64,000 nucleotides of DNA from Mesorhizobium koreense. GTDB lineage: Bacteria > Pseudomonadota > Alphaproteobacteria > Rhizobiales > Rhizobiaceae. Positions within the stretch are counted from its first letter, which is position 1, and every line of letters begins with the position of its first letter. The translations under genes were made by a program, and so were the position numbers. The notes beneath the pieces were generated by a model. The model did not search any database and was not told where the DNA came from. It saw only the letters and a program-made list of their open reading frames with translations. This document shows, one piece after another, positions 27,179 to 42,025 of the stretch. The stretch covers positions 3,615,001 through 3,679,000 of the forward strand of contig NZ_CP134228.1 in assembly GCF_031656215.1 (NCBI RefSeq), in the 5' to 3' direction.

Positions 27179-28843
27179 CTACATCGCCGAGACTTTGCCG
27201 GGGACATCCTTGGAAGGCCCGCGCCCTTCCCTCACGTCCTGGGCCAGTGCTTCCACAGAACGTTCCGACGGAGGGCCATAGGCTCCGCCACCCGGGGTAC
27301 GGATGGAAAGAAGCGCTCCTTTCGGCAACGCTACATCCGCCTCCGCGGAAGAGAGCACCCGTTCGTCAGGTCGGCCCGGGTTGAGGATGAACCGGCCTAC
27401 TTCGCCGTTTCCGCCGTCTTCGAGTCCAGGCGCAGGGACATGCTGCCGTTCCGACGAAAGCGACACGTGGATCCCATCCACCAGCGCGCGGTAGTCCCGG
27501 ATCACGCCGGTACCGCCACGATACTTTCCGGCTCCGCCCGAGTGGTCCCGCAACGCATAGCGTTCGAGGCGCAACGGATAGGCATGTTCGAGGGTCTCGA
27601 TCGGAAGGTTGGAGGCTCCGGACGCGTGCACGCGCACCGCGTCCATACCGTCCCTGTACGCGCGCGCTCCCATTCCTCCGGCGATCGTCTCGTAGTTGAC
27701 GAAATAAGAGCCTTCCTGCGTCCCAGGTCCTGCAAAGACTGCAAGATGATGCGGGCCGCTGCCTGCAATCGCCTTGCCCGGCATCGCCTGGGAAAGAGCG
27801 GCGGCAATCATGTCGCCGAGCACGCCGCAGGAGATCGAACGACATCCGACCGGCGCCGGCGCCACAGGCTGCACTACCGATCCCTTGGGGGCCCTGACGT
27901 CGATCGTATCGAAATAGCCGGCGTTGGCCGGCACGTCGGGGTCAAGCAGGCTCTTCGTGACCGTATAGATCGTCGCGATGAGCGCCTGGTCGGGGATATT
28001 GCGGGCCCAGCTCAATTGTGGCGCCGAACCCTCGAAGTCGAAATCCAGCCGGCCTTCGCCAACGGTCAGGGTAAGGGCGAGCCGGGCCGTCTCGCCTGGT
28101 CCCTCGCCGTCGAGAAAATCCTCGGACCTGTAGACGCCCGGCTTGATGCTGTTGATCGCCGATATGAAGCGACGCCTGGTGTAGTCGAGATAGGCCGCGA
28201 TCGCGGCTTCGGTAGTCTCGCCATATCGGTCGAACAGCGCCAGCACGCCGCGTATGCCCGTGACGTTCGAAGCGAACTGCGCGTTGAGATCCCCCACTCT
28301 TTCGTCCGGTGTGCGCGAATTGAGCAGGATGATGTCGAGGACGTCCTTGATAGGGACGTTGCCGCGCATGATGCGAACCGGCGGTATACGGATGCCTTCC
28401 TGGAAGATGGAACGGCAGACGGCGGCCTCGCTCCCTGGCACCATGCCACCGACATCCGCATGGTGGGCGATGTTCGCCACATAGGCGACCAGCCGGTCCC
28501 GCCAGAAGACGGGGGCGATCACGTTTATGTCCGGAAGATGCGAACCGCCACCGCTGTAAGGATCGTTGGCGACAAACATATCGCCAGGTTTGATCTCGGC
28601 CTCGTCAAAGCGGGCGCGGATAGCGTTGACCGCGCCGATCATCGAACCGAGATGGATCGGCACGCGCTGCGCCTGCGCGATCACGCGACCCTCGCGGTCG
28701 AACAAGGCCGTGGAGCAGTCCGCGCGTTCCTTGATATTCGGCGAGAACGACGCGCGGATCAGCGTCGCACCCATCTCCTCGGAAATCGAGAAGAGATGAC
28801 GGGAAACGACCTCGGCCGTGATTGCATCGACTGTCGTGTTCAT
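27179..28843 (-). CDS. Hydantoinase B / oxoprolinase subunit
   Basis: A 554-residue HyuB family protein; the N-terminal signature FSISEEMGATLIRASFSPNIKE is family-typical and PYSGGGSHLPD lies near 115. HyuA and HyuB together hydrolyse hydantoins, 5-oxoproline or related cyclic amides with ATP; related pairs act as acetone or acetophenone carboxylases. The start codon overlaps the hyuA stop by four bases. The exact substrate cannot be deduced. Confidence 0.87.
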   Translation of the reverse strand: MNTTVDAITAEVVSRHLFSISEEMGATLIRASFSPNIKERADCSTALFDREGRVIAQAQRVPIHLGSMIGAVNAIRARFDEAEIKPGDMFVANDPYSGGGSHLPDINVIAPVFWRDRLVAYVANIAHHADVGGMVPGSEAAVCRSIFQEGIRIPPVRIMRGNVPIKDVLDIILLNSRTPDERVGDLNAQFASNVTGIRGVLALFDRYGETTEAAIAAYLDYTRRRFISAINSIKPGVYRSEDFLDGEGPGETARLALTLTVGEGRLDFDFEGSAPQLSWARNIPDQALIATIYTVTKSLLDPDVPANAGYFDTIDVRAPKGSVVQPVAPAPVGCRSISCGVLGDMIAAALSQAMPGKAIAGSGPHHLAVFAGPGTQEGSYFVNYETIAGGMGARAYRDGMDAVRVHASGASNLPIETLEHAYPLRLERYALRDHSGGAGKYRGGTGVIRDYRALVDGIHVSLSSERQHVPAPGLEDGGNGEVGRFILNPGRPDERVLSSAEADVALPKGALLSIRTPGGGAYGPPSERSVEALAQDVREGRGPSKDVPGKVSAM

Positions 28844-30921
28844 TCTTTTCCTCCCGCGCTGGCCGTCGAGGGAATCTGGACCATGAGATTGCCGAAGCGG
28901 TCGTTCGCCACCTTTGCCCCGGGCGGGATTACCGTGGTGGCGTCCATCTGCTCGATCACCGCCGGTCCGCTGAATTCCGCCCCCAGCGGAATTTCGGCGC
29001 GATCGTAGACCGGCGTCTCGACAAAGCCCGTTTCATGGAACCACACCTGGCGCGTATCCAGTACCGCCGCATCGACGCTTCCGGCTTTGCTGGCTGCCGA
29101 CAAGGCTGGTGGGACCGGACGCGGGACGTTCAGGTTCAGCCTGACGTTCACGACCTCGACCGGCTGGTCGGCCATGCGATACCCGTAGGCCTGCTCATGT
29201 GCGGCGTGGAAACCTTCGACCAGCCTGCTCAATTCCGCCGGGTCGATGCGCTCCGATTTGAGCGCCGCGCTGAGTTCGAAATTCTGACCCAGGTAACGCA
29301 GGTCCACCGCCCAGCTATAAACGGCATTCGCTCCGTCCAGGCGCTCCGTCCTCAACCACTCACGGCCACGTTCCTTGAGTTGCGAAATCGCGTCGTCCAG
29401 TTTCCCGAGCGAATCTTCCCCTGCCCTGACGAGCCTTGTCAGGCTGAAATCGCCCTGCGTGTCGGCGTGGAGAAGTCCGAGCGAGGAGAGTATCCCAGGC
29501 CGCTGCGGAACGAAGACATGCGGGATATCCATGATGCGCGCGATGTCACACACATGCAGCGGACCCGCGCCGCCGAAGGGCATGAGCGCGAAACGGCGAG
29601 GGTCCTCCCCTTGCTCCACCGAGATCACGCGGACGGCGCCCATCATGTTCACGTTGATGATTTCGAGGATGCCGGCCGCCGCCCGCTCGAGGCTCATCCC
29701 GAGCTTGCCGCACAGATGCTCCTCGATCGCCTTGCGGCCAAGATCGGGGTAGACCGGCATCCGGCCGCCGAGCAACGCCTTCTGGTTCAAGCGCCCCAAG
29801 ACCATGTTGGCGTCCGTTACCGTCGGCAGTTCGCCGCCGCTGCCATAGGACGCCGGCCCCGGCTTCGATCCGGCGCTACGAGGCCCGACCTTCAGCAGGC
29901 CGCCCGGATCGATCCAGGCAAGGCTGCCGCCGCCGGCGCCTATCGTATGAATATCGAGCGTACGGGTACGGACCGGGAAGCCGGCCATCTCCCGCACGTC
30001 CTTTTTCCCGGGGACGCCATTCTTGATGAGCGCGACATCGGTGGAGGTGCCGCCCATATCCAGGGTGATGACATCCGGACAGCCAGCCTCGATACCGAGT
30101 TGCGCCGCGCCGATGATGCCGCCGGCGGGACCCGAGAAGAAGGTGTTGACCGGCTTGACGCGAACGGCGGCCGGTGAGACCGCACCGCCGTTCGATTGCA
30201 TGATCCGTGGCGCAGCCTTGATGCCGAGGCGTTCCACCCCTTTCTCGAAGCGTTCTAGGTAGCGATCGATGACCGGCAGCAGGCTTGCGTTTACCGCGGT
30301 GGTGGCGAAACGCTCATACTCACGGAATTCGGCGAGCACGTCCGAAGACGTACTCAGATAGGCATCCGGCCAGACTTCGCGAACGATGTCCGCAGCCCGC
30401 TTTTCATGTTCCTGATTCGCGTAGGAGTGGAGGAAACAGATCGCCACTGCGTCGCATCCCGCATCGCGGAGGCGGCGGACCGCGCATTTGACAGCTTCCT
30501 CATCCAGGGACGCGATCACTTCGCCATCGGCAGCAATGCGCTCCCTCACTTCCAGGCGATCCTCCCTGAGAGACGGAGGGACCGGCTTGGGGATATCCAG
30601 GTTGAAGAAGCTTGGCCTCCGCTGACGAGCCAATTCCAGTATGTCGCGAAATCCTGTGGTGGTGACCAGCCCTGTACGGGCCCATTTACCTTCGAGGATG
30701 GCGTTGGTGGCAAGAGTCGTGCCGTGGCAAATGAAAGCCACATCAGACGCTTCGATGTTGGCAAGCTCCAGAAGTTCGCCAACGCCCTTCAGGATACCGA
30801 CGGAAGCATCATCCGGCGTCGTGGGCACCTTGTGAAACCAATATTGCCCTTCCGGCACCGTGGCGAGGGTCAGGTCGGTGAACGTCCCTCCCGTGTCAAT
30901 TCCGATCCATGCACCGCCCAC
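28840..30921 (-). CDS. Hydantoinase A / oxoprolinase subunit
   Basis: A 693-residue HyuA family protein with the ASKHA phosphate-binding motif WIGIDTGGTFTDL at the N-terminus and DMGGTSTDVALI near 270. GTG start at 30921 with AGGAG eight bases upstream. It is the first gene of a three-gene operon (hyuA, hyuB, class V aminotransferase). A GTATAC-type operator lies 27-39 bases upstream of the start codon, well placed to block transcription. Confidence 0.87.
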   Translation of the reverse strand: MGGAWIGIDTGGTFTDLTLATVPEGQYWFHKVPTTPDDASVGILKGVGELLELANIEASDVAFICHGTTLATNAILEGKWARTGLVTTTGFRDILELARQRRPSFFNLDIPKPVPPSLREDRLEVRERIAADGEVIASLDEEAVKCAVRRLRDAGCDAVAICFLHSYANQEHEKRAADIVREVWPDAYLSTSSDVLAEFREYERFATTAVNASLLPVIDRYLERFEKGVERLGIKAAPRIMQSNGGAVSPAAVRVKPVNTFFSGPAGGIIGAAQLGIEAGCPDVITLDMGGTSTDVALIKNGVPGKKDVREMAGFPVRTRTLDIHTIGAGGGSLAWIDPGGLLKVGPRSAGSKPGPASYGSGGELPTVTDANMVLGRLNQKALLGGRMPVYPDLGRKAIEEHLCGKLGMSLERAAAGILEIINVNMMGAVRVISVEQGEDPRRFALMPFGGAGPLHVCDIARIMDIPHVFVPQRPGILSSLGLLHADTQGDFSLTRLVRAGEDSLGKLDDAISQLKERGREWLRTERLDGANAVYSWAVDLRYLGQNFELSAALKSERIDPAELSRLVEGFHAAHEQAYGYRMADQPVEVVNVRLNLNVPRPVPPALSAASKAGSVDAAVLDTRQVWFHETGFVETPVYDRAEIPLGAEFSGPAVIEQMDATTVIPPGAKVANDRFGNLMVQIPSTASAGGKE

Positions 30922-32744: not shown

Positions 32745-33187
32745 GATGATTGCCCAACTTTCACTGCACGAGGCGCAAGAACATGGCCGGATCCTTTGCG
32801 GACGGGCACCGTGTCTGAAAGCGCTCGTACGCAAATGTCATGCCATGGGAAATGCCGGCGAACATCCGTCTGCAATCTTTCTCCTGGAACTTGCCATGAG
32901 CCGTCCGATGGCTGGCTGCCATCGACGGCAATAGGAAAGACACTTTGTCCGTCTGGACTACACAGCAGCAACCCGGACATTTTGCGGTTCCAGCGCTTCT
33001 GCTTTTCCGTATACTGTATCCTGTATCGCAGCAACCGGCTGGCCATGTGAGGAGCGGGCTCGTTCAAGCTGGCATGCTTGTTGCGTGGGGAACACAGCGC
33101 CAGCGAGGCATTTTGCCCGCTTGTCATCGAAATTGGCGAAGTCAGGAATGCCTTTCGCCAATAAATTGAATGGCTAGGGAGGAAGAA
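32745..33187. other. Divergent intergenic region with operator
   Basis: This 443-base region separates the leftward flavoprotein and the rightward ABC transporter operon, so it must hold both promoters. It contains the GTATAC operator at 33009-33027. Short open frames here show no domain. No clear sigma-70 or sigma-54 element was identified. Confidence 0.45.
33009..33027 (+). promoter_or_regulatory. GTATAC-type operator upstream of the amino-acid-type ABC transporter
   Basis: GTATACTGTATCC followed directly by TGTATC gives three near-repeats of GTATNC at 6-7-base spacing. It differs at one of 13 positions from the minus-strand site at 7704. It lies about 160 bases before the binding-protein ATG and about 265 bases before the flavoprotein start. 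Confidence 0.55.
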
Positions 33188-34018
33188 ATGAAGGGTTTTG
33201 TTCTGAAATTCGCGGCTGCCGCCATTTCCGCGGCGACGCTCGCAGCCGTCACCTTGGGTTCCACACTTGCAGACGAGCTTTCCGACATCAAGTCACGCGG
33301 CACTCTCGTGGTCGGCGTAAAGGGCGACTCGCGCCCATGGGGCTATCTCGATCCGCAGGGCAAGCCGATCGGAATGGAAGTCGACCTGGCTCAGGACGTG
33401 GCAAAAAGGCTCGGCGTGAAACTGCAAGCCGTGGTGGTCCAGAGCTCGAACCGTATCGAATTCCTGAACCAGGGCCGGGTCGATATGCTTATCGCCACGA
33501 TGTACGACACCAAGGAGCGTCGACGGGCGATAGACATGATACAGCCTCACTACTATTCGGCTGCCACAAATGTGCTCGCGCGCAAAAGTGCGAAGCTCAA
33601 GGAATGGAAGGACCTTACCGGTAAGCCGGTCTGCGGCCAGCAAGGCAGCGTCTATAACAAGTGGATCGAGAAGACATATGGCGCCAAAGCCATGTCGCTT
33701 CCGACGATCGAGGAAGGATACGCGGCGCTCCGTGCCGGAAACTGCGTCGCCTTCGTATACAACGATCTCCTGCTGGAGATGGCTGCCAAGGAGCCTCAGT
33801 GGAAGGATTACGAGGTGCCTCTCCCCAGCGAAGACCGCCAGTATCACTCCATCGGAGTGCGCAAGGGAGAAGCCGAAACCGAGTTTGGCAAGACCCTGTC
33901 GGGCATCGTGACCGATTGGCACAAATCCGGGTTCCTTATCGATCTGAACGCGAAATGGGGCGTTGCCCCCAATACGTTCCTCGAGGAAGAGCATAAGAAG
34001 CTGGCGAACCAGAAATAG
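33188..34018 (+). CDS. Amino-acid-type ABC transporter substrate-binding protein
   Basis: A 276-residue family-3 extracellular solute-binding protein with a signal peptide (KFAAAAISAATLAAVTLG, cleavage near TLADE). The mature part starts RGTLVVGVKGDSRPWGYLD and contains the family GMEVDLAQDVAKRLGV motif. GGAGGAAGAA precedes the ATG at 33188; an upstream in-frame ATG at 33170 lacks this. First gene of a five-gene operon (binding protein, two permeases, ATPase, racemase-family enzyme). The ligand is a small amino acid or acid analogue, not further resolved. Confidence 0.88.
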   Translation: MKGFVLKFAAAAISAATLAAVTLGSTLADELSDIKSRGTLVVGVKGDSRPWGYLDPQGKPIGMEVDLAQDVAKRLGVKLQAVVVQSSNRIEFLNQGRVDMLIATMYDTKERRRAIDMIQPHYYSAATNVLARKSAKLKEWKDLTGKPVCGQQGSVYNKWIEKTYGAKAMSLPTIEEGYAALRAGNCVAFVYNDLLLEMAAKEPQWKDYEVPLPSEDRQYHSIGVRKGEAETEFGKTLSGIVTDWHKSGFLIDLNAKWGVAPNTFLEEEHKKLANQK

Positions 34019-34020
34019 TG

Positions 34021-34764
34021 ATGGACACGATCGCGAGTTGGTTCGAGCGTCTTTATGACGTCACCGGAATCAATCTGTCGTTCGTCTACGATTCCTACGA
34101 TCGTGGGAGATTCTTGGCCGGCATCCAGCTTACGCTGGAGCTGGCTTTGACCTGCATCGTCCTTTCCATCGCGATCGGCGTGATCGGCGCGTGGCTCCAA
34201 GGCTCGAGGTTCCGGATCACCAATGCGTTGATTCGGGCCTACATCGCCCTGTTTCGCAATACTCCGCCGATCGTACAGCTTTTTTTCTTCTTCTTTGTGG
34301 TGGGCGGGTTCCTGACCATCCACACGGACAGCGGCGTATTTCGTCTCAGCAACTTCACCTGGGCCGTCATTTCCCTGTCGTTCTATTATGGAAGCTTCAA
34401 CATCGAGAACTTCAGGGCCAGCATCGAGGCTGTGCCGGATACCACGGTGCAGGCGGCCGAAGCACTAGGTTATCGCACGCATCAGATCTACTTCCATATC
34501 GTCCTGCCGCTTGCGGTACGCTTCAGCCTGCCCTCATTGGCGAACAACCTGGTCAGCCTCGTGAAGTCGACGTCACTGGCTTATGTGATCGCCGTTCCAG
34601 AAGTCCTCTACGTGTCCTCCGAGATATGGAGCGAACAACTGAACGTCACCGAGATGATGTTCGTGGTGCTGTTCTTCTACGTCTTTCTGGTGGGTTTGCT
34701 GGTCTACGCGATGCATAGGCTCGAGGCCTACCTGCGCATCCCCGGCTACAACCTGGGAGCCTGA
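34021..34764 (+). CDS. Amino-acid-type ABC transporter permease 1
   Basis: About 247 residues with the HisM/GlnP layout: hydrophobic helices at about 25-50, 60-100, 190-230, the LFRNTPPIVQLFFFFF segment, and the EAA loop AAEALGYRTHQIYFHIVLPLA. ATG at 34021 follows the binding-protein stop by two bases; a GTG at 34018 overlapping the stop is an alternative. Pairs with the next gene as a heterodimeric channel. Confidence 0.87.
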   Translation: MDTIASWFERLYDVTGINLSFVYDSYDRGRFLAGIQLTLELALTCIVLSIAIGVIGAWLQGSRFRITNALIRAYIALFRNTPPIVQLFFFFFVVGGFLTIHTDSGVFRLSNFTWAVISLSFYYGSFNIENFRASIEAVPDTTVQAAEALGYRTHQIYFHIVLPLAVRFSLPSLANNLVSLVKSTSLAYVIAVPEVLYVSSEIWSEQLNVTEMMFVVLFFYVFLVGLLVYAMHRLEAYLRIPGYNLGA

Positions 34765-34767
34765 GTC

Positions 34768-35580
34768 TTGGACCTGACCCACAAAATCGTCGGTTCAACG
34801 TCGTCGAAGTCACAGGTCCTGATGGCGGTACTCTTCGTCTTCAGTCTTGGATTCACGCTGATGGTGACCGCCGACGCCGCGCTTGCTGCGCCGGGCAGTG
34901 AGGGCTGGCTCGATATCCTGGCCAAATGGGCGCCTTTGATCTTTTTCGGGTTTTGCCTGAACGTCGCCATGAGCCTCATCGCGGTCGTGCTGGGCACCCT
35001 GGCGGGCGGGCTGCTCGGCATCGGACAATGCGCCCAAACGCTATGGGTCAAACGGATTTCGTGGCTGATCACCGAATTTTTCCGCAACGCGCCCACCCTG
35101 GTGCTGCTCTTTTTCTGCATGTACCTGATACCCTTCCAGGTTCATATCGGCCCGTTCGACGTGCCGCTCCCCGCATGGGTGAAGGCGATCTTCGGCCTGT
35201 CGCTGTCGAAGATGGCATACGTATCGGAGATCGTCAGAGGCGCATTCGCTTCCATCCCGTCCGCGCAATGGGAGACGGCGGAGGCCCTCGCCTTCTCGCG
35301 ATGGCAGACGATACGCATGATCATCCTGCCCCAGTGCATCAAGCGGATGCTGCCTCCGTGGATGAACGCCTACGCGATCATGATCATGTCGACGCCGCTT
35401 GCGTCCGTCCTGGGGGTCAACGAAGGCCTGACCCTGACCCGTGCCGCGATCTCTGCGGTAGGCCGTCCCGACATGCTGACGCCGTTCTACCTTTTCCTGC
35501 TCGCCCTGTTCTTTATCTACTCATACCCGATATCGGCCTGGACGATCCGGCTCGAACGTCGATACGCCGTGAGGAACTGA
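34768..35580 (+). CDS. Amino-acid-type ABC transporter permease 2
   Basis: A 270-residue membrane protein of the same HisM/GlnP family: FRNAPTLVLLFFCMYL, then EAA loop ETAEALAFSRWQTIRMIILPQ. It has an extra N-terminal hydrophobic stretch (ALFVFSLGFTLMVTADAAL-like, about 15-35). The TTG start at 34768 has GGGAG upstream and lies three bases after the first permease. Confidence 0.86.
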   Translation: MDLTHKIVGSTSSKSQVLMAVLFVFSLGFTLMVTADAALAAPGSEGWLDILAKWAPLIFFGFCLNVAMSLIAVVLGTLAGGLLGIGQCAQTLWVKRISWLITEFFRNAPTLVLLFFCMYLIPFQVHIGPFDVPLPAWVKAIFGLSLSKMAYVSEIVRGAFASIPSAQWETAEALAFSRWQTIRMIILPQCIKRMLPPWMNAYAIMIMSTPLASVLGVNEGLTLTRAAISAVGRPDMLTPFYLFLLALFFIYSYPISAWTIRLERRYAVRN

Positions 35581-35586
35581 GGCCTT

Positions 35587-36330
35587 ATGACCGAAGAAAA
35601 TCCTCCTATCGTTCGCATAAGGGACATCCACAAATCCTTCGGAGCCATGCCCGTTCTCCGGGGTGTCTCGATGGACGTAACGCACGGAGACACCGTCTGC
35701 ATCATCGGTCCCTCCGGCTCCGGGAAATCGACACTGCTGCGCTGCGTAAACGCGCTTGTCCCCGTCGACGAGGGTTCGATCATGGTCGATGGACAAGACG
35801 TCACTGGAGCCAGGCTCGACAAGTTGGCTCTCCGCCGCAAGGTCGGCATGGTGTTTCAGCAGTACAATCTCTTTCCGCATCGCACTGCGCTGCAGAACGT
35901 CATGATGGCGCCCATCCATGTCCTCAAGCAGGATCGCGCCTCGGTCGAGACGCGGGCCCGCGCGCTGCTCAGAAAGGTGCGGCTGGAAGGCAAGGAAATG
36001 GCCTATCCGGGAGAGCTCTCCGGCGGCCAGCAGCAGCGGGTGGCAATTGCGAGGTCACTCGCGATGAACCCGAACGTCATGCTGTTCGACGAGGTCACGG
36101 CCGCACTCGATCCGGAGACCGTCAAGGAGGTTCTCGTCACCATACGGGAACTGGCGGAGGACGGCATGACGTGCCTGATCGTCACCCACGAGATGGGCTT
36201 TGCCCGCGAGGTCGCCAACAGGATCTACTTCACCGATAGCGGCAAGATAGTGGAAGACGGCCCGCCGGATGAATTCTTCGCTTCGCCTCGCCACGAGCGC
36301 ACACGCGAATTCCTCAATCAGATTCTTTAA
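35587..36330 (+). CDS. Amino-acid-type ABC transporter ATP-binding protein
   Basis: A 247-residue ATPase of the GlnQ/HisP group: Walker A GPSGSGKST, Q-loop VFQQYNLFPH, signature LSGGQQQRVAIARSLA, Walker B VMLFDEVTAALD and the switch His in VTHEMGFA. It starts six bases after the second permease. It completes a self-sufficient importer. Confidence 0.9.
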   Translation: MTEENPPIVRIRDIHKSFGAMPVLRGVSMDVTHGDTVCIIGPSGSGKSTLLRCVNALVPVDEGSIMVDGQDVTGARLDKLALRRKVGMVFQQYNLFPHRTALQNVMMAPIHVLKQDRASVETRARALLRKVRLEGKEMAYPGELSGGQQQRVAIARSLAMNPNVMLFDEVTAALDPETVKEVLVTIRELAEDGMTCLIVTHEMGFAREVANRIYFTDSGKIVEDGPPDEFFASPRHERTREFLNQIL

Positions 36331-36352
36331 CGACATACCGAATGGAGCCGTC

Positions 36353-37090
36353 ATGTCTGATCAGTCGCCCCCGACGTCGAAACGCATCGGATTGCTTGTG
36401 CCTTCCTCCAACTCGACGATCGAGGTTGAATTCTACCGGGCCCTCCCCTCTGACGTGACGCTCCATGTCGCGCGCTGCTTTCTGACCAAAATCGAGCCCG
36501 CCTCGATCGCAAGACTGACGGAGGATATCGATCGGGAGGCCGAATATCTGGCTTCCGCGGATGTCGACGTCGTCGTTCTAGGGGCGACCGCCCCGAGCTT
36601 CCTGCGCGGCAAGGGGTACGATCAGGAGCTGATCGCCCGGCTGACAAAGGCATCCGGAAAACCCGCAACGACAACTTCAACAGCCCTCCTGGCGGCGCTG
36701 GACGCGTTGGGTTTGAAGAAGGTGGCGCTATCGACGGCATTCAAGTCGGAAGTGAACGACATCGCCATCAAGTTCCTCAGCGACAACGGGTTGGAAGTCG
36801 TCGCTTCGAGCGGGCTCGGAATGGTGGACAATCTGCAGGTCGGCCGCTTGCCGCCGCAAACGGCGATCGACGCGGTCCGCGCCGTCGACAACTCCGAAGC
36901 GCAGGCAGTGGTGCTGGCCTGCACCAACTGGCAGTCGATGGCGGTTCTGCAGGAGCTTGAGGATGAACTGGGGAAACCGGTGCTTTCGACATCGCAGATG
37001 ACGCTCTGGCATGCGCTCAGGCTTGCTGGATATCCAGCCGGCGTGAAGGGCTTCGGAAGCCTCCTGGCTCAATCCATGCGCTTGAGTTGA
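36353..37090 (+). CDS. Arylmalonate-decarboxylase-like member of the Asp/Glu racemase superfamily
   Basis: A 245-residue paralogue of the protein at 1453. The second catalytic cysteine is kept (Cys190 in VLACTNWQ), but the first is replaced by Ala78 in LGATAPSF where the paralogue has YGCTSGSF. Single-cysteine enzymes of this superfamily are known as arylmalonate decarboxylases, which carry Gly at that place. A decarboxylase or a one-base isomerase is therefore more likely than a racemase. GGAG precedes the ATG. It ends the ABC transporter operon, so the transported compound is its probable substrate or precursor. Confidence 0.78.
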   Translation: MSDQSPPTSKRIGLLVPSSNSTIEVEFYRALPSDVTLHVARCFLTKIEPASIARLTEDIDREAEYLASADVDVVVLGATAPSFLRGKGYDQELIARLTKASGKPATTTSTALLAALDALGLKKVALSTAFKSEVNDIAIKFLSDNGLEVVASSGLGMVDNLQVGRLPPQTAIDAVRAVDNSEAQAVVLACTNWQSMAVLQELEDELGKPVLSTSQMTLWHALRLAGYPAGVKGFGSLLAQSMRLS

Positions 37091-37499
37091 GCGCCGCAAG
37101 CTCGCGACTGCCCGACATGGCACGCAACCGTGAACCGGCGGATCAGGGTCCGAAGCCCGCTGGCACGGCGACTCTGACGAGTGCTCATCCGACGACATCA
37201 AATTCTCACTCGAGCGAGTGGCCGGCAAAGACTTTTCCTCGCCATTCCGCTGAGGGCGGCCATACGTCCTCCTCGAGATGGAAGGAAGGCGCGGGTCGAA
37301 CCGAGCGCCCGTCAGGCAAGCGGGTTGGCCGGACATAGGTCGAAAGCGGTATTTGAGCGCGGAAGACCTAACAATTGCGCTCAGGTCAGCCTTTCACACG
37401 GAGCCCGATATGGCGCATCACAACCTTTTGTGCATGTTGTCCTGCCTCTGACTATTGCCGGATGATTGCTCCACCGGGTTAGCAGGCGGGGCATTTTAC
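37091..37499. other. Intergenic region at the end of the catabolic block
   Basis: No gene is supported. Short open frames on both strands have no domain or ribosome binding site. A perfect short dyad, CACTCG-ag-CGAGTG, lies at 37207-37220; its two-base centre makes it more like a protein-binding site than a terminator. Confidence 0.4.
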
Positions 37500-38600
37500 G
37501 TGATCGTTAATATTCAGGTATTGCGCGCGGTCGCAGCGCTGATGGTTGTTTGCGACCACATCCTCTTCGATTGGCATCACAGTCATGGGAACACATTTCC
37601 CCATTGGTTCAACACGACCGTAGGGTCGGCCGGCGTCGACCTGTTTTTCGTGATCAGCGGCTTCATCATGTTCGAAACGACACGCGGGCGTGACACAAGT
37701 CCCGTATCGTTTCTTGCCAAGCGGCTGATCCGCATTGCCCCCCTCTATTGGCTCCTGGTGATCGCATTGGCGGCCAAGAGCTATGAGCACAATCCTTCTC
37801 ATTTTGACTGGGAGTGGCTTGTTCAGTCATTGCTCTTTCTCCCCCATGTCGAAGGAGACATGGCGGGAGCGAGATTCCCCAGCGCCTATTTTCCCATTCT
37901 CTTCGTCGGATGGACTCTTATTTTCGAGATGTTCTTCTACGCGATATTCGCCTTAGCCCTTGTCTTCCGTGGCTCCAGATACTGGCGTGGCTCCAGATAC
38001 TGGCCTCTTGTCGTGCCCGCGTTCTTCCTGGTCATGATGAGCCTCGCCGACTGGACCCACAGCCAATACCTTGGCTACTACGATCATCCGATCATCTTCG
38101 AATTCCTCTTTGGAATGGCGATCGCAGCCATCCCGCCGAAATTCCGGTGGTGGCCGCTTGAAAGCGTCGGCGTGGCGATTTTCATGGTCGCCGGCGGCAT
38201 CGTGGGGCTGATCCTCGGAGATCTTGCGTTTGGCGAGATCAGGTCGGCGAGAGTATTTATGTACGGAATTCCGGCCGCTGCCATTGTCTATGGCGCGACG
38301 CGGCTGGAGCGCTCCGGATATGTCGTGAGAGGCCCGCTTCTCTTGTCGATCGGCGCCGCCAGCTATTCACTCTACCTGATCCATCCTATCTTTCTCTCGA
38401 AGGTGGAAAGGCTGCTGGACATCTTCCCCCCGCCGGACTTCTTGCTGGCATTTGCTGTTTATCTATGTGCGGTGATCGGCGCTGTAGTGCTTGCACTACT
38501 TTCATATGCGTTCTTTGAGCGGCCAACGCAGCATTTTCTCAAGCGCGTCTTGAGTGCGTGGCCAGCCGATGGGGCCACCAAGCCGGCAAGGGGAAGCTGA
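37500..38600 (+). CDS. Acyltransferase-3 family membrane protein (OafA-like)
   Basis: About 366 residues with around ten hydrophobic helices. The N-terminal IQVLRAVAALMVVCDH carries the family R-x10-H signature, and GVDLFFVISGFIMF is diagnostic. These enzymes O-acylate sugars of LPS, exopolysaccharide or Nod factors at the inner membrane. GTG at 37500 has a GGCGGGG site; a TTG at 37455 would add 15 residues. A perfect 18-base tandem duplication at 37968-38003 repeats RGSRYW in a loop between helices. It is convergent with the next acyltransferase gene. Confidence 0.85.
   Translation: MIVNIQVLRAVAALMVVCDHILFDWHHSHGNTFPHWFNTTVGSAGVDLFFVISGFIMFETTRGRDTSPVSFLAKRLIRIAPLYWLLVIALAAKSYEHNPSHFDWEWLVQSLLFLPHVEGDMAGARFPSAYFPILFVGWTLIFEMFFYAIFALALVFRGSRYWRGSRYWPLVVPAFFLVMMSLADWTHSQYLGYYDHPIIFEFLFGMAIAAIPPKFRWWPLESVGVAIFMVAGGIVGLILGDLAFGEIRSARVFMYGIPAAAIVYGATRLERSGYVVRGPLLLSIGAASYSLYLIHPIFLSKVERLLDIFPPPDFLLAFAVYLCAVIGAVVLALLSYAFFERPTQHFLKRVLSAWPADGATKPARGS
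37968..38003 (+). repeat. Perfect 18-bp tandem duplication inside the acyltransferase gene
   Basis: CGTGGCTCCAGATACTGG occurs twice in direct succession and keeps the reading frame, duplicating six residues. The perfect identity suggests a recent slippage event. Confidence 0.9.
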
Positions 38601-38748
38601 ATGCGAGCCGCGGTTTCGTGGTTGGCATTTTTGTAGGGGGCATTGCCCGCTTTTGAGCGCCCGCTTGCCTCATGACGCGTCGCGATACGCGCCATGCCGC
38701 TCCAGCCTTTGCCTCGAAGGTTGTCTGGAACTCCCCGCTCCGATGCCG

Positions 38749-39741
38749 TCACCCGACTTGCGGCGAGGGCCGGAGCATATTTTTCGCTCCACCCACAAAT
38801 TCTGCCGTCCGTTCGTTCGATACGCGGCGGTAAGCTCTCATGGCCGCCGCCCCGGCAACCCAGGCCAATGTGCTGGCGATCATCGCGAATATCCATGCTC
38901 CATCCTGGTCATACAGGCCGAGGACTTTTCTGTGTACCCGCAGGAAGATGGTATGCAGCAGGAAGATCGTGAAAGATGCCTGACCGACGACGTAGAGCAC
39001 TCGTACGGCGATGGAGGGCAGGATCAGGCTGGATTTCAGCGCCAGTATCGTCATGGCCGCCGAAAGGGTCCAGAACTGAGGATCGGCCGGACCGAAGACC
39101 GCTCCCGCACACACGACGGTTCCCGCGACAAGAGCAGTTTTCCGCATTCCAAGCGTATGCGCGTTCCGGTCGCGCAACAAAAAGAAAGCGACCCATCCGA
39201 GCAGGAAATTCCAGGCTACTCGCCAGGGCAATGTGGCGTGCGGCACCTCCGGCCAGAAGGTCGTCGTCACGATCGCCAGAGTGAGGAGAACGAGCGATCC
39301 TCGGAGCGGATTTCGCAGGAAGCCGTCGGCTGCCGCCGGAATGCAAAACAGGAGAAACGTAAAAGCAAGGATCTGAAGCAGCACCTGCGGATACCAGACA
39401 AACATGAAAGTCAGGAATTCCCTGGAGAACAGGTTGCTGAAAAAAAGGAGCTCGGAAAGGCTGAATTTCTGCCGGACAACGAAGGAAAGCAGCACAATGG
39501 CGGCGCACGGCAACCATATCTTAAGCGCCAGGCTGGCGACCGCGCGCCTGACGGACTGCGCATCGCCGCTCTGCAGCGCGAAACGCGCGAACGAATATCC
39601 CGATAGCATCAGGAGTACCGTCATCCCGCCGGCATAGTCGAATGGCCTCACGGGATGCGCATGATTGAAGACGACAGCGGAAATCGCAATCGCCTTCAGG
39701 GCAATGTCGGATGAAATGCCGCGCCTAGAGAGCCAATGCAT
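38749..39741 (-). CDS. Acyltransferase-3-like membrane protein
   Basis: A 330-residue multi-helix membrane protein. The N-terminus ALKAIAISAVVFNHAHPV carries the positively charged residue and His of the acyltransferase-3 signature in shortened form, and GGMTVLLMLSGYSFARF resembles the second family motif. About nine further hydrophobic helices follow, ending near TIFLLHTIFLRVH. GAGGG precedes the ATG. The start overlaps the end of the adenylation-carrier gene by 17 bases, so both are one transcript and probably one pathway: the acyl group loaded on the carrier is likely passed to this membrane enzyme. Confidence 0.72.
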   Translation of the reverse strand: MHWLSRRGISSDIALKAIAISAVVFNHAHPVRPFDYAGGMTVLLMLSGYSFARFALQSGDAQSVRRAVASLALKIWLPCAAIVLLSFVVRQKFSLSELLFFSNLFSREFLTFMFVWYPQVLLQILAFTFLLFCIPAAADGFLRNPLRGSLVLLTLAIVTTTFWPEVPHATLPWRVAWNFLLGWVAFFLLRDRNAHTLGMRKTALVAGTVVCAGAVFGPADPQFWTLSAAMTILALKSSLILPSIAVRVLYVVGQASFTIFLLHTIFLRVHRKVLGLYDQDGAWIFAMIASTLAWVAGAAAMRAYRRVSNERTAEFVGGAKNMLRPSPQVG

Positions 39742-41449
39742 TCGCGCGGCCCTCTAGTTCATCCACCGTCAGATTTTCCCAATCGTCGGGGACGCACCCC
39801 AAATAGTCCTCGAGCGCAAGATAGGTTTGTACATAGCTCAGCGAATCCCCGGACAACGAGGAGAAGGTGCTGCCGGCATCGACGCCCTGCGCGCTGACGA
39901 AGGTTCGGTAAATGTGCGCGACCCCTTCCCATTCCTCCTTGGCGAGGCCGAGTATCCGTGCGGATTCCAGGAATGCCCCTCTGTAGAAATCCGGAGAAAG
40001 AAGTACCGACAGCCAGTCGGGCAGCGCGGCTCCTGAAACGCGCGCGACACTCTCCTCCCGGTCCCTTGCGGCCAGTTCCAAAAGCTGTCGGTAGTCGGTC
40101 TTGCCTGTTTCCAGCAACGGCAGTTCGTCAACAACGACCACTGAGAACATGAAGGCCGGCAGGTGGTACATGGAGGCCAATGTTGACACGAGCTGCTCGG
40201 ATTCCACCGGCGAGACTGACCGGGGGAATGCGACGACGATCCTTTCATCCGTTCCCGCAAGCGCGCAGCCGGGTATCCATTGCCTGGCCTGGTTCTGTAC
40301 TTCGTCCAGGTTCACCCGGATTCCGAATGGCTTTACGAAGCGGGATTTCCTGCCGACGATGTAGAAGAGCCCGTCTCCGTTCCGGCAGGCGATGTCGTCG
40401 GTCAAAAGCCGGGCCGGCGTGCAGTCGGAAGAGAGGTCGGAACTATCGTGTGCGTACCCCATCATGACGTTCGGGCCGCGATATGTCAGTTCACCGGGAA
40501 TATCGGGTACGAGAACGGGGTTCCCGGTCTCGTCGATCAAGTCGATTTCGCCGCCCGGCACCGGCATACCAATGCAATGGGAGAATTCCGCGGCCCGGTC
40601 CGGGGGAAGATAAGCGATACGGGGCGAGGCTTCTGTCTGTCCGTACATCACATAGAAGCGCCATCCGTTCTCTTCGCCGACCCTGGCAAGCTGGCTGACG
40701 AGCGCCGGCGCGAGCCGGCCGCCCGCCTGCGTGGCGTATCTCAACCCCCGCGTTTTTGCCCACGGAAACGCCGCTCGGTCGAGCATTTCGAATGTGTAGG
40801 GAACGCCCGCGAAACTGGTTGCACCGACTTGGCCGAAGAGATCCCAGAATTCGCGTTCGATGACGGATAGATCGGTCAGCGCCAGGGAAGCGCCGCATGC
40901 CAGATGGGAATTCACCACCGACATCCCATAGGAATAATTGAACTGCAGGCTCGTCAGGGCCCGTTCGCGGGTATCGAGACGGAGGTATTCGCAGATGGAA
41001 AGAGCATTGGCGTGGATATTCTTTCCCGACAACTTCACGAACTTCGGGGTTCCGGTCGACCCGGATGTCGACAGAAGCACGCGCAGGTCCGGATGCAGCT
41101 CGTGAGGCGCTTCGCAAGGCCTATCCTCCTCGAGACTGCCGCTTCGCCAGCGCCAGACGACGTTGGGTTTGTACCTTTCCGCCAGGGCGGCGGTCTTTTG
41201 CCAGTCGCGCCCTGAAAAAAGATAGACGGGATGCGCTCCGATCAGACAGCCGAGATAGGCGGCGATCGACTCGACGGTGTTGAGAGCCTCCAGGAACACC
41301 AGCGCGCGCGCCGGTCCGAGCCGCTCGGCAAAGTTTTCCGCCTCCCCCAGGAGCTCGCCGTAGCTGACCTGCCGGTCTCCGGCGACCAGCGCCACGTTTT
41401 CGGAATGCTGCTTCAGATTGTCGTAGAACGCAGACAGCACAGCCCCCAC
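39725..41449 (-). CDS. Adenylation domain fused to a C-terminal carrier domain
   Basis: A 574-residue fusion. The adenylation part has A3 LLSTSGSTGTPKFV (125-138), A5 YGQTEA (269-274), A7/A8 TDDIACR...GRKSRFVKPFG (350-376) and the A10 lysine Lys450 in LETGKTDY. A carrier-like domain (about 505-570) has the phosphopantetheine serine in LSGDSL (Ser536). The A4 segment reads FNYSYG; the Asp that binds an alpha-amino group in amino-acid-activating domains is Asn, so an organic or fatty acid may be the substrate. There is no condensation or thioesterase domain. The start is GTG at 41449, with another GTG at 41440. It is an analogue of DltA-DltC or AlmE-AlmF in one chain, followed by a membrane acyltransferase. 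Confidence 0.8.
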   Translation of the reverse strand: MGAVLSAFYDNLKQHSENVALVAGDRQVSYGELLGEAENFAERLGPARALVFLEALNTVESIAAYLGCLIGAHPVYLFSGRDWQKTAALAERYKPNVVWRWRSGSLEEDRPCEAPHELHPDLRVLLSTSGSTGTPKFVKLSGKNIHANALSICEYLRLDTRERALTSLQFNYSYGMSVVNSHLACGASLALTDLSVIEREFWDLFGQVGATSFAGVPYTFEMLDRAAFPWAKTRGLRYATQAGGRLAPALVSQLARVGEENGWRFYVMYGQTEASPRIAYLPPDRAAEFSHCIGMPVPGGEIDLIDETGNPVLVPDIPGELTYRGPNVMMGYAHDSSDLSSDCTPARLLTDDIACRNGDGLFYIVGRKSRFVKPFGIRVNLDEVQNQARQWIPGCALAGTDERIVVAFPRSVSPVESEQLVSTLASMYHLPAFMFSVVVVDELPLLETGKTDYRQLLELAARDREESVARVSGAALPDWLSVLLSPDFYRGAFLESARILGLAKEEWEGVAHIYRTFVSAQGVDAGSTFSSLSGDSLSYVQTYLALEDYLGCVPDDWENLTVDELEGRANALAL

Positions 41450-41948
41450 CGCTTCCGGCTAAGCGCCATCAGCGCCCCGTCAAACCCCGGTTTCGCCTTC
41501 AACCTCTCGATACGGTCGCCAAAGATGCGCGGACTGGCCCTTCAGCTCGCGCGAATACACCCGGATCGCAAATCCCCGGTCGGCCTTCGGAAAGGCCGAG
41601 AATTTCCCGGGGATATCAAGCTCCGTTCGCTCACGATTATATTCAATATTAAGCTCAAATATTTATTATAGATTCCGAGCTTCAGGAAGAAAGCTTCCAT
41701 CGGCACTTCGTATATATTGCACTATGCTTTCGGCGTATCTGGCTGGCAGAATCCTGGCAATGATAAGCGTTGAAGTTCGTTCTCGCGGCCGGGCCGACCC
41801 TGCCCTTGCCCGATCGCGCTGCCGACGAAGCACGCTGCAAGGGGCGGAAATTGCTCGGTCATGAACATAACAAATACAAAAAGTTGAAACTGGCCCCGGA
41901 GAAAAGTTGAAACTCCAGAGCGACAAAGCGCCAAGTGTTTGAGAAATA
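41450..41948. other. Intergenic region between surface module and tRNA-Asp
   Basis: No gene is supported in this 499-base gap. Bases 41633-41725 are AT-rich and probably include the promoter of the adenylation-carrier operon. A 13-base direct repeat lies at 41879 and 41902. No integrase or transposase remnant is recognisable. Confidence 0.45.
41879..41914 (+). repeat. 13-bp direct repeat next to tRNA-Asp
   Basis: AAAAGTTGAAACT occurs at 41879-41891 and 41902-41914, separated by 10 bases. It lies 35 bases beyond the 3' end of tRNA-Asp. It may be a relic of a mobile element end or a protein-binding site. Confidence 0.7.
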
Positions 41949-42025
41949 TGGCGCGAGTGACGGGGCTCGAACCCGCGACCTCCGGCGTGACAGGCCGGCA
42001 CTCTAACCGACTGAGCTACACCCGC
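41949..42025 (-). tRNA. tRNA-Asp (GTC)
   Basis: A 77-base cloverleaf with encoded CCA. The acceptor stem is GCGGGTG/CACTCGC with one G-T pair, the D-loop arm reads AGCTCAGTCGGTTAGAG, the anticodon loop CCTGTCACG gives anticodon GTC, and the T-arm GCGGGTTCGAGCCCCGT is canonical. Confidence 0.97.

Follow-up and report, generated by a model that had tools for sequence, protein, structure and literature searches.

A candidate carrier-fed acyltransferase-3 gene pair in Mesorhizobium koreense and its single-chain relatives in rhizobia and actinobacteria

In the Dlt system, which D-alanylates teichoic acids, an adenylation enzyme loads a carrier, from which a multi-helix membrane acyltransferase takes the acyl group. 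AlmG, the transferase of the AlmE-AlmF-AlmG system, belongs to a family other than acyltransferase-3 (AT3). AT3 enzymes are among the commonest modifiers of bacterial surfaces, and the donors shown for them so far are acyl-coenzyme A (acyl-CoA). Their commonest fusion partners are SGNH and alanine racemase, and the main text of the review that reports this contains neither AMP-binding nor phosphopantetheine (PMC9558356). Here we describe two overlapping genes in a 64,000-nucleotide stretch of the Mesorhizobium koreense genome (contig NZ_CP134228.1, positions 3,615,001 to 3,679,000; 'the window', whose numbering is used throughout), one encoding an adenylation domain with a C-terminal carrier (the A-T protein) and the other an AT3 protein (AT3a). 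We lean towards reading the pair as an A-T-AT3 acylation machine divided between two genes, in which the transferase would be fed by the carrier and the acceptor would most likely be a sugar of a surface polysaccharide.

The evidence for this reading begins with relatives in which the two proteins are one. A search of 101 related genomes returned homologues with open frames some 300 residues longer than the window A-T protein, and these longer homologues (about 100, nearly all of 830-930 aa) hold adenylation, carrier and AT3 domains in one chain. A scan of genome contigs gave 80 loci, cited below by their L numbers where needed, including rhizobia, phyllobacteria, Leisingera, Marinobacterium, Streptomyces, Mycolicibacterium, Arthrobacter and Nocardioides, and the fusions span many genera in two phyla. 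In the annotated plasmid records examined, the fused genes are named merely 'AMP-binding protein'. Because adenylation, carrier and AT3 form one polypeptide in most relatives, we regard them as one functional unit, and the Dlt- or Alm-like logic proposed by an earlier, sequence-only reading of the window is supported. That reading placed the loading enzyme and the carrier in one chain, which is right for the window and understates the family, most of whose members have the transferase in the chain too. The family is patchy: in the Rhizobiaceae, the host's family, a homologue at E < 1e-60 was found in 30 of 298 genomes (a few being standalone ligases), and it is missing from three genomes of the host genus.

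Three other genomes encode A-T proteins lacking AT3 in the chain, at L142 (53% identical to the window A-T protein), L143 and L144. At L142 and L144 the matching AT3 gene comes next, at L142 with the identical 17 bp overlap; the AT3 that accompanies the A-T protein there has 49% identity with AT3a. A maximum-likelihood tree of 128 A-T parts (midpoint root, SH-aLRT support) joins the window protein and the three other split proteins in one clade (support 97) amid fused proteins. The split pair is thus most likely derived from a single-chain ancestor, fission being the most parsimonious course on a tree with a midpoint root only. A profile built from the fused AT3 domains finds AT3a at 1.8e-41 and its counterparts of L142 and L144 at 6.6e-44 and 6.2e-37, with no match among seven other AT3 proteins, a second AT3 of the window included. 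The specificity of this profile is our best argument that the two window genes belong together as a unit.

The A-T protein is, as the sequence-only reading had it, an adenylation-carrier fusion with a candidate attachment serine at position 536. PF00501 matches residues 101-332 with 142 bits (cut-off 29.9), the conserved catalytic Lys450 is invariant in 56 homologues, and the adenylation domain resembles structures (Z 37-39) of acyl-CoA ligases and of adenylation domains from nonribosomal peptide synthetases (NRPS). Such adenylation matches took up the Foldseek and VIA-align lists, which therefore hardly probed the AT3 and carrier folds; in the viral library, too, adenylation matches were the only notable ones. 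PF00550 scores 13.6 bits on the window protein, under the cut-off of 20.8, and exceeds it in three A-T orthologues (24.9, 37.4 and 26.9 bits). Ser536 is unchanged across the 56 homologues, whose consensus here is LGGDSL; LGGDSL or GDSL around the serine is the usual carrier motif. A profile of the region compared with solved structures listed only carrier proteins or carrier-bearing synthetases among its matches, and in the AlphaFold2 model (pLDDT 88.6, pTM 0.81) a helix begins at Ser536, as in carriers. Residues 505-574 are, by profile and model, a carrier, and a check of the fold of residues 505-570 left that assignment unrefuted. A Pfam scan found no condensation or thioesterase domain in the protein, and no condensation, thioesterase or NRPS partner was seen in the surrounding open reading frame lists, read by eye with Pfam run on part of them, in agreement with the earlier description.

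The overlap of this gene with an AT3-like gene, also noted earlier, was likewise confirmed (Table 1). AT3a matches PF01757 with 47.3 bits (cut-off 31) and no further Pfam family. The 'second acyltransferase-3 gene' of the sequence-only reading does lie nearby, at 37455-38600 and 148 bp from the AT3a gene; it is on the plus strand, convergent with the pair and therefore outside the operon, and the profile of the family's AT3 domain does not recognise it. Opposite strand and missing profile match together rule it out as the partner of the A-T protein. It belongs to another AT3 group, outside the A-T/AT3a unit, and the plural 'acyltransferases' of that reading does not stand.

Table 1. Features of the gene pair, in window coordinates
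Feature	Coordinates	Strand	Basis
AT3a, 330 aa membrane acyltransferase, most likely the split-off C-terminal domain of fused relatives	38749..39741	minus	PF01757, family AT3 profile
K16-X10-H27 in the first helix of AT3a, R/K-X10-H motif of AT3 enzymes	39661..39696	minus	motif of PMC9558356
17 bp overlap of the A-T and AT3a genes, equal in length in the closest relative L142	39725..39741	minus	ORF coordinates
A-T protein, 574 aa, adenylation domain and C-terminal carrier	39725..41449	minus	open frame, PF00501, homologue conservation, model
Adenylation domain, residues 1-463	40061..41449	minus	PF00501, VinN alignment, pocket table, structure matches
Carrier domain, residues 505-574	39728..39937	minus	family profile; model helices 510-517, 536-550, 562-573
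Ser536 codon, expected phosphopantetheine attachment site	39842..39844	minus	serine invariant in 56 homologues

The pocket and catalytic residues of the adenylation domain are Ser173, Pro276, Arg277 and Lys450. No gap against VinN interrupts the spacing to the GASL motif, and Ser173 falls at the position of VinN Asp230. The spacing holds without gaps against GrsA too, which places Ser173 at GrsA Asp235. Both aspartates mark the amino-binding position (PMC11253843). The sequence-only reading had an asparagine replace this aspartate; Asn171, found two positions ahead of Ser173 where most relatives have His, is out of register by both the GASL spacing and the VinN alignment, and was rejected as the amino-group residue. 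The substance of the observation survives, in that no acidic residue is present to bind an amino group: position 173 is Ser or Cys in 56 of 56 rows. Since such a residue is lacking, the substrate is probably not an amino acid; a different kind of carboxylic acid, which may carry a further polar or acidic group, is likely. Arg277 does not vary and corresponds to Arg331 of VinN in the alignment. At position 276 the window protein has Pro, as do 7/10 rows of its own branch of the tree, described below, and 46/46 rows of the other have Ala; the difference suggests a different acid in the window branch.

Taking together the computed domains, how they relate to the fused proteins, the motifs they conserve and the polysaccharide genes near several branch members, we infer the following scheme, which presumes that the pair is active in its host. 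The adenylation domain would activate a carboxylic acid with ATP, and the acyl group would pass to a phosphopantetheine arm on Ser536, on the carrier of the same chain. The carrier would then dock on the cytoplasmic side of AT3a, which would take the acyl group directly from it, and not from CoA, and would hand it on beyond the cytoplasm, the acceptor most likely being a surface-polysaccharide sugar. The fusion to a carrier suggests an AT3 donor other than acyl-CoA; if the carrier is the donor, this would be a departure from the AT3 enzymes studied so far. AT3 enzymes could then be fed by a dedicated carrier, which would widen the range of groups available for surface sugars, and the fused form would offer a single-protein object for studying AT3 acyl movement across the membrane.

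The window protein falls in a deep group of the tree, set apart from two sister clades (support 87), one actinobacterial (99) and one of rhizobia and relatives (100). Polysaccharide genes lie near 5 of the 12 deep-branch loci (L033, L037, L143, L144 and L147, the last recognised by sequence and similarity rather than by a Pfam scan), the 12 including L057, L148 and L149, which branch beside the deep group and not within it, with flank lengths that vary between loci. The genes there encode a bacterial sugar transferase, glycosyltransferases, UDP-sugar dehydrogenases and a probable flippase. The same search found none at the 79 loci of the two sister clades (Fisher P 2e-5). The surface acylation proposed by the sequence-only reading thus fits the window's branch, for which a surface glycan is a plausible and, for the window pair, the most likely acceptor; as a general role it is supported only in part, the sister clades carrying iron operators.

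Within these sister clades, hereafter the iron branch, two kinds of operator recur. DtxR/IdeR-like boxes (at least 14 of 19 matches to the iron-box consensus) precede 35 of 47 actinobacterial loci, against 1/155 control upstream regions in the same loci. A ferric-iron ABC transporter stands beside 28/47, and a box or a transporter is present at 40/47. The fused gene adjoins this transporter in three arrangements in Rhodococcus, Mycolicibacterium, Streptomyces, Protofrankia, Nocardioides and others; L106, L109, L046, L059 and others combine a single-chain gene, boxes and a neighbouring SfuABC/FbpABC transporter. The binding protein of Rhodococcus fascians matches the structures of SfuA (E 9e-134), YfuA and FbpA, and the locus on the virulence plasmid of that species sets the fused gene next to metal-resistance genes and an iron transporter. 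Of 27 rhizobial fused genes, 23 have the RirA operator TGA-N9-TCA (PMC8822346, PMC6386902) in their promoter region, vs 32/178 other genes; it lies some 20-90 bp before the fused gene at L004, L010-L012, L014-L018, L020-L026 and others. Few rhizobial loci have the ferric transporter (L015, L026 and L103). Upstream of the fused Leisingera genes at L027, L028 and L029 stands a shared promoter motif resembling TTGACAnnnTTnGTAAAT, which may be a Rhodobacterales site responsive to iron. In the stretch tested, the 12 deep-branch loci are all free of iron boxes.

P values overstate these operator contrasts, since related loci are not independent. Even so, with unrelated operators in two phyla pointing the same way, the larger branch appears to be regulated by iron starvation, and the single protein encoded there may produce an iron ligand or attach one. 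As a tentative proposal, possible rather than probable, A-T-AT3 proteins could be an undescribed iron-acquisition enzyme class of rhizobia and actinobacteria, in which a single membrane protein activates and carries an acid, transfers it via AT3, and makes or anchors an iron ligand for FbpABC-type uptake, the window pair standing in a related branch that acylates surface polysaccharides from a carrier-bound, CoA-independent donor. In many bacteria of soil and plants, two unrelated regulators identify genes annotated only as 'AMP-binding' as part of the iron-starvation response, so an uptake route of this kind may be widespread; since most of the family appears to belong to iron-starvation regulons, it is larger and stranger than supposed.

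The pair sits just beyond tRNA-Asp (41949-42025). A relative in the genus is syntenic with the window (about 85% identity) from 51344 to 41883, the tRNA gene included, and then diverges, and the sequence that follows the break in the relative maps to 2.80 Mb of the host genome. The pair thus lies in a segment not conserved here in the genus, and 41883-41949, just past the 3' end of tRNA-Asp, is a predicted rearrangement or insertion boundary. No repeat of the tRNA end that would mark the end of an island was found in the window. On the other side of the pair, 27179-30921 and 33170-37090 form a probable catabolic region, with genes of the hydantoinase/oxoprolinase type, an ABC transporter of the amino-acid type and an arylmalonate-decarboxylase-like gene. 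Elsewhere, L105 on a Rhizobium phaseoli plasmid has a YcaO and TfuA-like gene pair a few genes away from the fused gene. The standalone ligases L005, L006, L101, L108 and L132 were rejected as family members, being too short for a carrier and AT3; L005, L006 and L108 lie next to LuxE-type acyl-protein synthetases, or to acyl carrier protein, SDR and KAS III genes in a sugar cluster, and these neighbourhoods are a different acyl-activation system.

Several observations weigh against a carrier-fed glycan acylation machine in the window. The AT3 review names acyl-CoA, and not a carrier protein, as the donor in the systems studied, and speaks against donors bound to carriers (PMC9558356). Loading of the carrier must depend on the single phosphopantetheinyl transferase recognised in the genome, or on one that escaped detection. 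Support for the deep group is modest (80) and it is drawn open, Ala276 occurs in 3/10 of its rows as well, and at L143 the A-T gene adjoins a generic AT3 rather than the family's own. No glycan genes were recognised near the window pair or its closest relative L142, nor any glycan cluster in the window, and the glycan interpretation rests on more distant members of the branch. An alternative that draws on the other branch is that, when iron is scarce, the pair produces an iron-binding acyl ligand or attaches one, with the ferric ABC transporter encoded elsewhere. The architecture and most catalytic residues are common to both, and the operators and transporters counted above in rhizobial and actinobacterial relatives speak for it, as does a one-mismatch near-operator at -208 of the window A-T gene. 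However, the 520 bp upstream of that gene hold no perfect RirA operator, no ferric transporter adjoins the pair, and the window falls in the box-free branch with Pro276 rather than Ala276; on these sequence features the pair does not look like the iron branch, and we consider this explanation unlikely.

The non-conserved segment beside tRNA-Asp, with catabolic enzymes and an amino-acid-type transporter to the left, would suit a pair that adds acyl groups to a secreted or antibiotic-like small molecule, in the way that some AT3 enzymes modify macrolides, with flanking strain-specific genes supplying the substrate. No biosynthetic cluster was seen, however, and the surroundings of the pair do not resemble those of its nearest relatives, which makes such a role quite improbable. 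That the genes are ordinary and unlinked, an acyl-CoA-ligase-like enzyme beside a generic AT3 acetyltransferase, could be argued from an adenylation fold closest to acyl-CoA ligases and NRPS adenylation domains, and from a window carrier that alone scores under the Pfam cut-off; the single-chain fusions in many genera of two phyla contradict it, the invariant carrier serine and the specific AT3 subfamily count against it too, and we give it hardly any credence.

Literature searches, with subscription papers outside their scope, returned no description of the A-T-AT3 architecture, nor of its combination with iron. The siderophore synthesis and FbpABC/SfuABC systems resemble the iron branch in their iron operators and adjoining ferric ABC transporter; that branch has one protein rather than an NRPS or NRPS-independent siderophore (NIS) synthetase cluster, and on the present evidence the likeness is not applicable to the window. 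PA1221 and the EntE-EntB fusion have the adenylation and carrier fold and are both among the structure matches, whereas the window A-T protein has no condensation or thioesterase partner, and is partnered by a membrane acyltransferase. OafA, OafB and OatA have in common with AT3a the PF01757 membrane domain and the R/K-X10-H motif, and several A-T-AT3 relatives lie in polysaccharide clusters, but the studied members of this type use acyl-CoA. AlmE-AlmF-AlmG, which places glycine on Vibrio lipid A, likewise modifies a surface molecule by adenylation, carrier and membrane acyltransferase, although as separate proteins and with a transferase of another family. DltA-DltC-DltB is alike in that an adenylation-loaded carrier feeds a multi-helix membrane acyltransferase. 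It differs in its transferase, DltB being an MBOAT protein and that of the window PF01757, and in its build, loading enzyme and carrier being one chain in the window and all three parts one chain in most relatives. Both Dlt and Alm take an amino acid as substrate, whereas here Ser173, and no Asp, occupies the GrsA 235 position.

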